A DNA stretch of 64,000 bases from Nitrospirota bacterium (GTDB lineage: Bacteria > Nitrospirota > Thermodesulfovibrionia > UBA6902): contig JACRLN010000044.1 in the NCBI GenBank assembly GCA_016215115.1, positions 1 through 64,000 on the forward strand, read 5' to 3'. Both the position numbers and the translations under genes were made by a program. The first letter of the stretch is position 1. Every line of letters starts with the position of its first letter. Under the pieces are notes generated by a model. That model was not told the DNA's origin. It saw only the letters and a program-made list of their open reading frames with translations, and ran no database searches. This document shows, in pieces, positions 16,778 to 58,913 of the stretch.

Positions 16778-17101
16778 TTATTGTAAGGTTTCTATAAATG
16801 TTTTATATTCTTGAGGTGGGTTTATAATTTCCATACCGATGCTGTAAGTTAAGCTATGAGGCGGATTTTTATATGACCATAATACACGGCAATTTAAATT
16901 TAATGTTTCTCCTAAAACGTGTTGAAGTTTCATCTCAAATATTGTTCCAGGAGAAACATCTATTGAAGTCTGAGCAGGGAAAGTTCTCATATACATACCA
17001 TTCACAGAAAGATTATCTATAAATCCTGTATACATCATACTGCCGGAGATAATCTCAGCATCTAACCTGACAATTTTTCTCTTTGAGCGTCTTCTTTCCA
17101 T
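16778..17101 (-). CDS. PilZ-domain protein
   Basis: A 107-residue single-domain PilZ protein. The N-terminal arginine-rich segment ERRRSKRK supplies the RxxxR element and DNLSVNGMYM supplies D/NxSxxG, the two parts of the cyclic-di-GMP site. It is expected to be a small c-di-GMP receptor controlling motility, polysaccharide or another target by protein contact. No GGDEF or EAL gene is in this window, so the partner is unknown. Confidence 0.88.
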   Translation of the reverse strand: MERRRSKRKIVRLDAEIISGSMMYTGFIDNLSVNGMYMRTFPAQTSIDVSPGTIFEMKLQHVLGETLNLNCRVLWSYKNPPHSLTYSIGMEIINPPQEYKTFIETLQ

Positions 17102-20109: not shown

Positions 20110-20125
20110 AGCAAATTTAGTGCCA
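20110..20125 (-). promoter_or_regulatory. sigma-54 (-24/-12) promoter of the usp-YeeE operon
   Basis: Minus-strand TGGCACTAAATTTGCT: GG and GC separated by exactly 10 bases and a near-perfect match to the RpoN consensus. The predicted start is near 20099, giving a leader of about 33 bases before the ATG at 20066. A sigma-54 activator gene lies directly upstream, divergent. Confidence 0.8.
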
Positions 20126-20288: not shown

Positions 20289-21635
20289 ATGATTGACAAA
20301 TTTTTGAGAAACCCTCAGTTTTTACCTGAGGTATTTGAGACTATGAGAGATGGTCTCATGGTTGTGGATAACGAAGGCTACATACAGTTATTTAATCGTG
20401 CGGCTGAAGAGATAACCGGCTATAAAAGAGAAGATCTTATAGGTAAAAAATGTACTATTTTTGATTGTGATGCATGTATAATCCTGAATGAATCTAAAAG
20501 CCAACGAGACTCCCAGCTTGTAAAATTCGGTGCCATTTACAACAAAGAATGCAGAATACGGTCAGGTGACGGGAGGTCTGTACGTCTTTTAAAAAATGCC
20601 GCTGTCTTACGTGATGACAGTGGAGATATAATAGGCACGGTTGAGTCAATGACGGATTTCACGTCCTTCTATAAAAAGGAAATGGAGCTGCAGGATATAA
20701 AGCTGGAATTAAGACAGGAATACTGGTTTATGGGGTTGCTGGGGAAGAGCATCCCTATGCAGAAATTATACTATCACATACGGAATGCCTCTAATAGTGA
20801 AGCCACTGTCCTGATTTGCGGAGAAAGCGGCGCCGGAAAAAACCTGGTGGCCCATGCATTACACAAACTGAGCAGACGTAAAGATGGACCCTTTATACAG
20901 ATGAACTGTGCTTCTCTTAATGAGCAGCTTCTTGAAAGCGAGCTCTTCGGCCACAAGAAAGGTTCCTTCACGGGAGCTGTAAGTGACCGGATAGGAAGAT
21001 TCGAGGCATCAAATAACGGGACCATATTCCTGGACGAAATTGGAGATATGCCGATTACAATGCAGGTAAAACTGCTCAGGGTCCTTGAAGAAAAAGTAGT
21101 GGAGCTCGTTGGAGACCATAAGCCGATTCCAGTGGACATCCGGCTTATTTCAGCCACGAACAAGGATCTCAACAACTTGATGAATACCGGCAAGTTCAGG
21201 GAAGATCTCCTTTACAGAATAAATTCAATTGTCATCAAAGTACCGCCGCTCAGGGAGAGAAGAGAAGACATACCTCTCATTGCCTTCCACTATCTGAAAA
21301 AGATCTCCTTTGTAAACAACAAGGATATCCACAGTATCAGTTCTCCCGCAATGGAGATTCTGATAAATTTCCCATGGCCGGGCAATGTGAGGCGGCTCAT
21401 CAATGCCCTGGAGCACAGCGCGGTTACCTGTAAAGGCGATACTATTGAAGTCTCTGATCTGCCGGATTATCTTGTCCATGAGAAAATACATGAGGTCAGT
21501 GAAAACCATCTTGACAGGGAGAGGATATATTCTATCCTTTCTCAGTGTAATGGGAATAAAACTCTTGCCGCAAAGCATCTTGGAATCAGCCGGGTTACTC
21601 TGTGGAAAAAACTGAAGGCGTTGGGCCTTGAATGA
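20289..21635 (+). CDS. sigma-54-dependent transcriptional activator (PAS-AAA+-Fis)
   Basis: 448 residues. A PAS domain (about 10-125) bears a cysteine cluster KKCTIFDCDACII (C55, C60, C63). The AAA+ domain has Walker A GESGAGKN (178-185), the sigma-54 contact loop GSFTGA (225-230; usually GAFTGA) and Walker B TIFLDE (245-250). The C-terminal Fis-type helix-turn-helix ends GISRVTLWKKLKALG. There is no receiver domain, so signal input is through the PAS domain or by protein contact with the kinase gene 92 bp downstream. It is divergent from the usp-YeeE operon, whose promoter has a sigma-54 consensus, and is probably its activator. Confidence 0.93.
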   Translation: MIDKFLRNPQFLPEVFETMRDGLMVVDNEGYIQLFNRAAEEITGYKREDLIGKKCTIFDCDACIILNESKSQRDSQLVKFGAIYNKECRIRSGDGRSVRLLKNAAVLRDDSGDIIGTVESMTDFTSFYKKEMELQDIKLELRQEYWFMGLLGKSIPMQKLYYHIRNASNSEATVLICGESGAGKNLVAHALHKLSRRKDGPFIQMNCASLNEQLLESELFGHKKGSFTGAVSDRIGRFEASNNGTIFLDEIGDMPITMQVKLLRVLEEKVVELVGDHKPIPVDIRLISATNKDLNNLMNTGKFREDLLYRINSIVIKVPPLRERREDIPLIAFHYLKKISFVNNKDIHSISSPAMEILINFPWPGNVRRLINALEHSAVTCKGDTIEVSDLPDYLVHEKIHEVSENHLDRERIYSILSQCNGNKTLAAKHLGISRVTLWKKLKALGLE

Positions 21636-21727
21636 TTAATAAAAAGTTCAGTTGACGATGCATGTGCAAACTGCGCTTAACATAATTCGGAACAGTATAT
21701 AGCGGATTATAAAGAAAAGGAAATAAA

Positions 21728-23764
21728 ATGAAGAGTTATATTGCTATCATAGGAGTTCTCGTTATTATAATCGCTTCTCTAATTATATTGAACGTCTCTT
21801 TTCATCGGACACTCCAGATGGAAATGGCAGAACAGTTCAATAAACAGCAGTTGCTCCTTGCCAAGGCAGAGGCATCCAACATTCAGGCGTACATTGGCAA
21901 AGTAAAAGACGAAATGCTCCGTATCACTCAGTTTGAATCCATGTCTCAGATTAATAAAGAGACGCTTTATGCATTTTTTACAGATGAGTTTTTTAAGGAA
22001 GTCGGCAAGGTGAAATTGGGGATCAAATTTCTGGACAATGAAGGGAAGGTGATCTTCACTCAGGGCAACCTTGCCATCGAACGACCCTATAATAAGGATT
22101 TTATTGAAATGGCTAAAGGTGTTTGCCCGAGTGAAGTACTGATAAAGCAGGATACGAAGATGGTTTATATAGTAACTCCTGTGTGCCGTTATAGGTCTCT
22201 TATCGGCGCTGTTGTCATTTCCATTAACATACAGGATATAGCGAGAGAAGTCCTCAGCCCCATAACATCCGGGGCACGAGGGTATGCATGGATGATGGAC
22301 GGCAGCGGTGATCTCCTTTACCATCCTACTCAACCTGCCATGGTAGGCAGGAATTTGTACAAGACCGACACTTCCTGCTTTCAATGTCATAAATCCTTTG
22401 ATTTGGAGAAGAAGATCATCGAGGGGAAAGGCGATTATTATGGAAAATACCTTGCACCTACAGGGGAAGACAAGGTTCTTGCCTTTTCCACTGCATCTAT
22501 TGGAGATGCAAAATGGATCGTAGTGGTATCGGCTCCATATTCCGAGGTCACCATGCCAATTCAGACCTCCATGCGATTTCATTCATGGCTCATTATCTTA
22601 ATCTTTATAACTACAAGTGTTGTATCTGCAATGCTGATCGTCTTGAACAGAAAAAGGGTAAAAGCTGAAGAACTTGCAAAACACCAAAAGGAGCTTGAGA
22701 AATACGCTGAGGATCTTGAGGAAAAGGTTGATATCAGAACAAAGGAACTCACTACAGAGAAGGAAAAGCTTTATACCATTGTAAGTGCGATCGGAAGCGG
22801 TATCATTCTAATTGATAATCACAGGAAAATACAATGGATAAACCAGACGATGAAGGATATCATAGGAAAGGATATCACCGGCATGTTATGCGATGATTTT
22901 TTTGCAGATTGCACAATCATAAGCTCCTATACGGCTAATTTCACGCAAACGGACATACTGTCAAATCTTTTTGGCCAGGGGAATAAATTTTTCCAGGTTA
23001 CAACTGCGCCGGTGAGGGGTGTGGACGACGGGGTGTACGGCTACATCAGACTGGTACATGATGTGACGGAGATGAAGAGGATGGAAGAACAAATGATGCA
23101 CTCCGAGAAACTGGCGTTACTCGGAAGATTGACTTCGGGCATAGCACATGAAATAGGGAATCCCTTAACGTCGGTATTCTCCATTGTTCAGGTATTAAAG
23201 GAGATGGAGCAGAATGAATTCAAAAAAGAGAGTATCGAGACCATATATTTATACATGAAAAGAATTGCCGATATACTGAAGCAACTTTCCGGTTTTTCGA
23301 AGATGCCACCTGTAGAACTCAAACCATGGAAAGTAAACAGTCTCATAGAGGCTTCCCTGTCCCTCTTGCAGTACGACAAGAGGGTAAAAGATGTCACTGT
23401 TGTGAGAGATCTCATGCCTGATATGCCGGAGATCACCATAGATGGGAACCAGCTCTCACAGGTTATCGTGAACATTGTATTGAATGCAGCCGATGCAATG
23501 CCGGATGGAGGAACGCTCACTATACGCAGTTGGGTAAAAGATAAAAGTATAGTCATCGCTTTTAAGGACACCGGGGTTGGCATTCCCCCGGAGAATCTCG
23601 TCAGAATATTCGACCCCTTTTACACAACGAAGGAGAAAGGAACAGGCCTGGGGCTTGCGGTGAGCGAAAGCATCATGGAGAAACTTAATGGAAGCATCAC
23701 GGTAGAAAGCGAACTCAACAAAGGCTCCACATTTATGATAATCCTTCCTACAGATAAAGTCTAA
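21728..23764 (+). CDS. membrane histidine kinase with Cache-like, CXXCH-bearing sensor domain
   Basis: 678 residues. Helix 1 (about 5-23), an extracytoplasmic sensor (24-285) of double-Cache type, helix 2 (about 286-306), coiled coil, PAS (about 350-455), HisKA with H474 in GIAHEIGNP, and HATPase with NIVLNAADAM, DTGVGIPP and GTGLGLAV. The sensor contains C217-F-Q-C220-H221, a c-type haem attachment motif placed in the second Cache-like half, plus C133 and C153. This suggests sensing of redox state, a gas or a sulfur compound through covalent haem. It is co-oriented with the activator gene, but the activator lacks a receiver, so how the signal is passed is open. Confidence 0.92.
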   Translation: MKSYIAIIGVLVIIIASLIILNVSFHRTLQMEMAEQFNKQQLLLAKAEASNIQAYIGKVKDEMLRITQFESMSQINKETLYAFFTDEFFKEVGKVKLGIKFLDNEGKVIFTQGNLAIERPYNKDFIEMAKGVCPSEVLIKQDTKMVYIVTPVCRYRSLIGAVVISINIQDIAREVLSPITSGARGYAWMMDGSGDLLYHPTQPAMVGRNLYKTDTSCFQCHKSFDLEKKIIEGKGDYYGKYLAPTGEDKVLAFSTASIGDAKWIVVVSAPYSEVTMPIQTSMRFHSWLIILIFITTSVVSAMLIVLNRKRVKAEELAKHQKELEKYAEDLEEKVDIRTKELTTEKEKLYTIVSAIGSGIILIDNHRKIQWINQTMKDIIGKDITGMLCDDFFADCTIISSYTANFTQTDILSNLFGQGNKFFQVTTAPVRGVDDGVYGYIRLVHDVTEMKRMEEQMMHSEKLALLGRLTSGIAHEIGNPLTSVFSIVQVLKEMEQNEFKKESIETIYLYMKRIADILKQLSGFSKMPPVELKPWKVNSLIEASLSLLQYDKRVKDVTVVRDLMPDMPEITIDGNQLSQVIVNIVLNAADAMPDGGTLTIRSWVKDKSIVIAFKDTGVGIPPENLVRIFDPFYTTKEKGTGLGLAVSESIMEKLNGSITVESELNKGSTFMIILPTDKV

Positions 23765-25783: not shown

Positions 25784-25864
25784 TGTTAAAACTGTAGCAT
25801 ATTCAACACATTAGCGGGTAATAAATACAACTAATCAGGTGAAATAACGGCAAGATGTTGGTAT

Positions 25865-25943
25865 TTATGCCAAATTTTGTCCATCAAATCAATGAGATTT
25901 TCAACAATTACGTTCAAAATCAGTGCCTTAATATTTGGCATAA
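25865..25943. repeat. 11-bp inverted repeat overlapping a sigma-54 promoter
   Basis: TTATGCCAAAT (25865-25875) and its exact complement ATTTGGCATAA (25933-25943) are 57 bp apart. The right arm covers the -24 element of the promoter at 25935, so a protein binding both arms could block or loop it. Confidence 0.55.
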
Positions 25944-25951
25944 CAATTGCA
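25935..25951 (+). promoter_or_regulatory. sigma-54 (-24/-12) promoter of the small CXXCH ORF
   Basis: TTGGCATAACAATTGCA has GG and GC separated by exactly 10 bases and matches the RpoN consensus apart from T for C in TGGCAC. The predicted start, about 25962, leaves a leader of only about 12 bases, which still contains AGGAGA. Confidence 0.65.
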
Positions 25952-25973
25952 GTATAATTCTTAGGAGATAAGA

Positions 25974-26120
25974 ATGGCAGCTTTAAATAGTTGTGAAATA
26001 TTAGACGAATTAAAGAAACTCGGTATAGAGCTTCCAGCAGATATTATCGAATATTTAGAAGATTATTCAATTTATTGTTCCTATAAAGACTGCGTTATAT
26101 GTCATGAAAAGGATAAATAG
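25974..26120 (+). CDS. 48-residue cysteine-rich small protein with CXXCH
   Basis: An ATG with AGGAGA (25963-25968) at 5-base spacing opens a 48-codon frame ending TAG at 26120. The protein has an acidic helical-looking N-terminus (EILDELKKLGIELP) and the tail YCSYKDCVICHEKDK, with C35, C40 and C43 followed by H44. CVICH is a c-haem attachment motif, but no signal peptide is present, so a zinc or redox knuckle in the cytoplasm is more likely. The sigma-54 promoter and good ribosome site support expression. I do not recognise a family. Confidence 0.6.
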   Translation: MAALNSCEILDELKKLGIELPADIIEYLEDYSIYCSYKDCVICHEKDK

Positions 26121-58211: not shown

Positions 58212-58835
58212 TTATTTTTTCTTCTCAGCCTTCGGAGCTGCCTTTGCTGGTTTTGCCTTTTCCATAGCTGCTGTGATCTGGCCGGCTACTTCTGCTGCCT
58301 TGTCTTTTGCGCCGTTTGCCTTGTCAGTTGCGGCTAAATAGTCTTCACTGTCGATCAGGCCCTGTGCTTCGGTCAATGCCGCCTCAAGTCCGGCAACATC
58401 TGCACGCATAGCTTCGATGTCAGCCTTTGTGCCTTTTCCTTTAGGCGCCTTGCCTAACAATGCCTTTGCATCACTTACAGCGGTCTTGGCAGCATCGAGT
58501 GCCGCAATGGCGTCATTCTTGGCTTTCTCTTTTCTTGCCGGTATTTCAGCTTTCAGAGTGTCTGCGCTGCTTTTTACTTTAGCAAGAATCTCTTTTGCCT
58601 TATCATAGTTCTTGAAGAATTTTCCATCCTGAACCTTGACTTCATCCATTGCCGCTGTTAACTGATCATTCAGTGACTTTACTTCCTCTTTTGCATATTT
58701 TTCGCCGCCCTCTGCAAGTACAGCATCAATTGATGCCTTTGAATCGTTCATTTCCTGTGTAGGCTGTTTTGCACAGGAAGTAAGTACAACAAGCATGGCC
58801 ATAACTACTGTTAAAGATAGTAATAGTCTTTTCAT
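58212..58835 (-). CDS. alpha-helical lipoprotein (DUF4398-like)
   Basis: About 207 residues from the ATG at 58835, which has AGGAGG 8 bases upstream; the in-frame ATG at 58856 adds seven residues and has no such site. The lipobox LTSC gives C21. The mature part is almost all alpha-helical with Ala/Lys heptad-like repeats and a Lys-rich end (KPAKAAPKAEKKK), as in cell-wall-binding lipoproteins. The neighbouring L,D-transpeptidases could attach it to peptidoglycan. First gene after a sigma-54 promoter. Confidence 0.75.
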   Translation of the reverse strand: MKRLLLSLTVVMAMLVVLTSCAKQPTQEMNDSKASIDAVLAEGGEKYAKEEVKSLNDQLTAAMDEVKVQDGKFFKNYDKAKEILAKVKSSADTLKAEIPARKEKAKNDAIAALDAAKTAVSDAKALLGKAPKGKGTKADIEAMRADVAGLEAALTEAQGLIDSEDYLAATDKANGAKDKAAEVAGQITAAMEKAKPAKAAPKAEKKK

Positions 58836-58897
58836 GTCTTGTTCCTCCTTTCTCATAGGTTATTAATTAATACCAATGGTATTCGGAAGCACAAGAT

Positions 58898-58913
58898 TGC
58901 AAATTAAGTGCCA
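58898..58913 (-). promoter_or_regulatory. sigma-54 (-24/-12) promoter of the lipoprotein-L,D-transpeptidase operon
   Basis: Minus-strand TGGCACTTAATTTGCA: GG and GC separated by 10 bases, a full TGGCAC-N5-TTGCA match. The predicted start is near 58887, about 52 bases before the ATG at 58835. Confidence 0.75.

Follow-up and report, generated by a model that had tools for sequence, protein, structure and literature searches.

A conserved sigma-54-linked microprotein of Nitrospirota and its possible relation to PilZ receptors

The window, by which we mean the whole 64,000-nucleotide stretch of DNA analysed here, contains a small gene that is preceded by a conserved sigma-54 promoter and by an enhancer-like site (positions 25974–26120, forward strand, 48 codons). 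To our preferred reading we assign a probability of about 0.4: the product would be a protein-binding microprotein, switched on by sigma-54, that acts in trans, probably on PilZ receptors. HtpG or another partner of the microprotein is a serious rival to PilZ.

The 48-residue frame described by the sequence-only reading is present at 25974–26120, and its product ends as stated there, in C35-x4-C40-x2-C43-H44. Both genes flanking it in the window are on the opposite strand, and the microprotein gene is thus a single-gene unit, with htpG pointing away from it and ligA pointing towards it. Of 24 loci of the htpG type, 21 have a divergent htpG 220–809 bp upstream of the microprotein gene; downstream, a gene for a TPR protein (TPR families assigned with Pfam) or ligA faces the microprotein gene in most of the loci. 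This gene order is consistent with a sigma-54-switched protein that has a target other than PilZ and serves HtpG (Hsp90), or the TPR protein encoded next to it, as an adaptor or regulator, and a gene read from its translation as an HSP20-like small heat-shock protein also stands behind a sigma-54 site in the genome. However, the microprotein gene and htpG are on opposite strands and therefore do not form an operon; the htpG strand carries no sigma-54 match above 9/11 in 11 loci, the three matches of 9/11 differing in place and sequence; and the TPR gene is missing from the window and from G006, in both of which the microprotein is retained. We regard a role with HtpG or the TPR protein as possible, though doubtful.

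The 48-aa protein was used as a query against 150 related genomes. Each of the nine further genomes of the same genus that were searched contained an ortholog (E = 8.5e-10 or better), as did much of the family. In the combined searches, the conserved module of the protein (residues 1–36) occurs in a short frame at E ≤ 0.01 in 30 of the 37 genomes of family f1 (G000–G036); the match in G035 is borderline (E = 0.0115), and none was obtained in G014, G016, G019, G021, G028 and G032, G021 having been searched with the single-protein query only. Across a phylum sample of 395 genomes, 44 gave a match at E ≤ 0.01, a threshold that admits short stretches of long proteins, and many of the matches are of this kind. 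Matches in loci L143 and L145, which we take to be UPF0175-like, were judged convergent. Eight named records with the microprotein are Nitrospirota MAGs. A mobile or phage origin was rejected on the basis that no relative was found in viral contigs (profile A2) or plasmids.

The dN/dS ratios of the window sequence against its orthologs were 0.13, 0.14 and 0.20; only these three could be used, since dS was saturated in 17 of 20 comparisons. Seven other ortholog pairs gave 0.07–0.21. The microprotein ORF is a real coding gene under purifying selection, and the ratio near 1 that the sequence-only reading had named as contrary evidence was not observed. The same values bear on the idea that the locus works through a small RNA or a leader peptide, the ORF being incidental. 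A short transcript is expected, and the stem AAGCTGA-CAGCTA-TCAGCTT lies 3' of the stop codon, but dN/dS of 0.07–0.21, an RNA folding z-score of 0.30, the lack of an Rfam match and the position of the next gene on the other strand argue against this idea. We consider it extremely improbable.

The sigma-54 (−24/−12) promoter TTGGCATAACAATTGCA at positions 25935–25951 of the forward strand has the exact GG-N10-GC spacing reported by the sequence-only reading and ends 22 nt before the ORF. As a 17-mer it occurs once in the 2.82-Mb genome, in which the pattern TGGCAYN5TTGCW has 22 matches versus 3 for the reversed control pattern. The best match within 90 bp upstream of the start codon is at least 9/11 before all 21 orthologs and at least 10/11 before 20 of them, whereas of 204 ORFs elsewhere in these regions, which form a better control than base-composition shuffles, 6 reach 9/11 and 1 reaches 10/11. 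The distance from the −12 box to the ATG is 18–25 nt across the 21 orthologs. The genome encodes RpoN (PF04552, E = 2.2e-61) and 25 enhancer-binding proteins (PF00158 matches). To judge from the translations, the genes that stand behind these pattern matches presumably include flagellar, pilus, nif, cytochrome c and HSP20-like genes; the HSP20-like gene has its sigma-54 site at L190 (G000:C10:5803–5818), and a gene for an enhancer-binding protein lies about 600 bp upstream of this gene.

With the ATG at 25974 and a predicted transcript start near 25962, the leader would be about 12 nt long (25962–25973, forward strand), and half of it is the AGGAGA ribosome site at 25963–25968. This agrees with the short distance and the AGGAGA site given by the sequence-only reading, the start itself being a prediction.

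Besides the promoter, a second element, TGcCAaATTtTGTC at 25868, is conserved upstream of the gene. A motif search in the 21 orthologous upstream regions gave 15.8 bits, compared with 8.6–9.6 bits in three shuffled sets, and returned the consensus TGcCAaATTtTGTCaat, which in the window corresponds to TGCCAAATTTTGTCCAT (25868–25884, forward strand). In 17 of the 21 orthologs the motif scores above 10 at positions −98 to −108 relative to the ATG; the other 4 do not have it. Located about 80–95 bp ahead of the predicted transcript start, 25868–25884 would be a candidate position for an enhancer-binding protein. The promoter, the RpoN and enhancer-binding proteins that the genome encodes and the upstream site together support the assignment of the microprotein gene as a putative sigma-54-dependent transcription unit, and its predicted regulatory anatomy is unusually complete, with an enhancer-like site, a sigma-54 promoter and a leader that starts at the ribosome site.

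The enhancer-like site, which the sequence-only reading did not contain, overlaps one arm of an inverted repeat that it did describe. This 11-bp repeat (first arm TTATGCCAAAT, 25865–25875; second arm ATTTGGCATAA, 25933–25943, overlapping the −24 box; both forward strand) is indeed exact in the window, but in the other 20 orthologs no such repeat that includes the −24 box exceeds 7 bp. Since the exact copy is confined to the window among the 21 orthologs, we judge the repeat to be coincidental rather than functional and reject it as an operator.

Searches for the activator and for other genes under the same site were made with the motif and by gene order. The neighbouring enhancer-binding-protein and kinase pair (20289–23764) is not supported as the activator, only paralog-level matches being found near the orthologous loci. 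The 25 loci that encode enhancer-binding proteins in this genome have no convincing motif copy that would point to autoregulation (best scores 13.6 at L119 and 11.8 at L129). With one mismatch allowed, the enhancer pattern has 52 matches in the genome against 89 for the reversed control, and the one place where it matches exactly is the site in the window, a partial source of the pattern; the pattern search therefore names no regulon. Nor was the motif found before the tandem PilZ operon of the genome or before the microprotein's paralog there, where the best score, 9.3, is at a different position.

Two more sigma-54 sites were seen in the window. The first, TGGCACTAAATTTGCT (20110–20125, reverse strand), heads a group of genes that read as universal-stress-protein and YeeE-like genes and is divergent from a gene for a PAS-type enhancer-binding protein, which is followed by one for a histidine kinase whose sensor part contains a CXXCH (SCFQCHK) (20289–23764, forward strand); the two groups are likely a regulator–target pair. 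The second, TGGCACTTAATTTGCA (58898–58913, reverse strand), lies upstream of a gene for a 214-aa lipoprotein-like product (58212–58856).

Single-gene sigma-54 units with one enhancer motif are already known, as are PilZ receptors. Haft et al. (2006, PMC1569441) describe sigma-54-controlled single-gene PEP-CTERM units with PrsK/PrsR, in which one enhancer motif, sometimes repeated, is located about 50–60 bp before the −24/−12 promoter; their motif 1 is 17 nt long, ends in TTTACA and is reported there only in proteobacteria. The microprotein gene resembles these units as a single-gene unit with one enhancer-like motif at a comparable distance upstream of a −24/−12 promoter. It differs from them in other respects: the microprotein has neither a signal peptide nor a PEP-CTERM tail, its upstream motif is TGcCAaATTtTGTC and not one ending in TTTACA, and its promoter ends 22 nt before the start codon versus a mean of 71 in the PEP-CTERM units (PMC1569441). 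Neither the tail with an export signal nor the TTTACA motif 1, the marks of the PEP-CTERM/PrsR regulon, was found for the microprotein.

Nearly all of the conservation in the protein is within residues 1–36, the module encoded at 25974–26081 (forward strand), where M1, L4, E8, L13, G17, Y31 and Y34 do not vary across an alignment of 27 copies. AlphaFold2, run on nine sequences, predicts a helical hairpin with helices at residues 6–15 and 21–42 (mean pLDDT 78.7); the pLDDT is about 91 over residues 11–30 and about 52 at the C-terminus. The remainder is a variable cysteine tail of low model confidence, CSYKDCVICHEKDK (residues 35–48; 26076–26117, forward strand). No hydrophobic N-terminus or export signal is visible in the 48-aa sequence. 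Nothing in Pfam or NCBIfam matches the protein above the curated cut-off, in agreement with the earlier statement that it has no known family, and the gene defines a conserved family of microproteins for which neither database has a match above cut-off.

The sequence-only reading proposed a small RpoN-controlled metal or redox protein. The prediction of a small RpoN-controlled protein is supported, but the metal or redox part is not. A small protein that binds metal, possibly heme, through C35, C40, C43 and H44 would fit the cysteine-rich tail in the window, the three tail cysteines also found in G006, G005 and G001, and C7, which is kept in all 21 htpG-locus orthologs. On the other hand, CXXCH occurs in only 2 of the 21 orthologs (the window and G020), so that a metal, heme or redox role inferred from it is unsupported and was rejected; 12 of the 21 have no tail cysteine, and copies of the module outside these orthologs carry K, R, Q, N, S, E or G at the position of C7. 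The attachment of c-type heme needs an export signal, and the microprotein has neither this nor the conserved CXXCH of a c-type cytochrome. We consider a metal or redox function very unlikely.

The hairpin could also have a role elsewhere, for example as a sigma-54-switched nucleic-acid-binding protein or anti-activator. Like GP16.7 of phage phi29 (PF06720), the microprotein has a short helical stretch, and there is weak sequence similarity between the two (best E = 0.0012; 7 of 23 members at E ≤ 0.1), along with a match to a GP16.7-like phrog (E = 0.029). All matches to GP16.7 are nevertheless under the curated cut-offs (20.3 bits versus 27), the microprotein has no phage context and is acidic by sequence, and Foldseek against the PDB returned three matches, none at E ≤ 0.001. 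The PDB sequence search gave weak matches only, the best to calcium-dependent kinases and RecG. Such a role is rather unlikely, at about the level of the HtpG or TPR connection.

The evidence for PilZ as the target, which our preferred reading assumes, comes from other copies of the module. The module forms the N-terminus of a PilZ protein (PF07238) in L137 (Pfam E = 1.2e-5) and L136 (E = 1.1e-4), and in L141 (E = 1.3e-12) and L151 (E = 3.7e-15) a PilZ gene is directly downstream of the module on the same strand, which makes 4 cases of fusion or adjacency among the 38 module-bearing regions scanned. A profile built from the htpG-locus orthologs only finds the modules of L137 (E = 2.4e-12), L151 (E = 1.5e-10) and L141 (E = 3.6e-8); the L136 module is weak with this profile (E = 0.064) and reaches 3e-5 with a broader profile built without L136. 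RxxxR and D/NxSxxG are the c-di-GMP motifs of PilZ, and RxxxR and NxSxxG are present in all four module-linked PilZ domains. In a tree of 29 PilZ domains, from which one row was dropped as a duplicate gene, the four fall within one 10-row clade (support 98/94), without forming an exclusive clade (4 label changes, the same as in shuffles). The PilZ profile was built after skipping 3 of 29 PilZ loci for odd length.

Given that PilZ domains of the c-di-GMP type, all of one subfamily, either carry this hairpin at their N-terminal side or are encoded just downstream of it, the microprotein is a probable partner of such domains in trans within the limits of the probability given above. Unlike the PilZ receptors, it has no PilZ domain (no PF07238 match) and therefore cannot bind c-di-GMP by the PilZ fold. 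The strongest points against PilZ as a target in trans are that the htpG-locus microprotein never adjoins PilZ in the 38 regions and that the sigma-54 promoter is missing from 3 of the 4 PilZ-linked modules.

The sequence of events that our preferred reading would involve is as follows. An enhancer-binding protein would bind at 25868 and open the sigma-54 promoter at 25935, giving a short transcript from about 25962, with the ribosome site for its translation lying at the 5' end. The product would be a cytoplasmic microprotein consisting of the 36-residue helical hairpin and a variable tail, which in trans may serve as a switchable binding partner for the receptors of one PilZ subfamily, so that c-di-GMP output would be adjusted whenever the sigma-54 signal is active. 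Should the PilZ link be right, two global systems, sigma-54 and c-di-GMP, would be joined through a free-standing regulatory hairpin, and one PilZ subfamily is named as the candidate. An open-access literature search found neither the microprotein family nor its relation to PilZ. That a free N-terminal hairpin of PilZ receptors under sigma-54 control adds a regulatory subunit in trans, and thereby represents a new form of c-di-GMP control, is a tentative proposal that we hold with low confidence.

A sigma-54 promoter is also found before other copies of the module. A paralog in the same genome (L108, G000:C15:22806–22922, reverse strand) has its own promoter with a match of 10/11, and paralog-like small genes occur in related genomes as well. 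Among the 22 module copies labelled class 2, 16 have a match of at least 9/11, this set including G017b, G011 and G040, which by gene order belong to the htpG-type locus (G040, on a short contig, by its TPR and methyltransferase neighbours). L108 is followed by a 199-aa gene, which also follows the G006 copy (L056), and then by PEP-CTERM-like proteins.

Consistent with the PilZ reading, the genome of the window also encodes a tandem PilZ operon (L161, G000:C23:8679–9338), with a sigma-54-like site (10/11) located 73 nt ahead of the first ATG; such a site is found at the same distance before the tandem PilZ pairs of G005 and G022, and the second gene of L161 resembles the module-linked PilZ. 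Upstream of L161, there is a vague resemblance between TGTCAAAATATTTACGG and the PEP-CTERM motif with the TTTACA end (PMC1569441). The window itself also contains a PilZ-domain gene (16793–17098, reverse strand, E = 6.6e-8), one of 23 PilZ matches in the genome.
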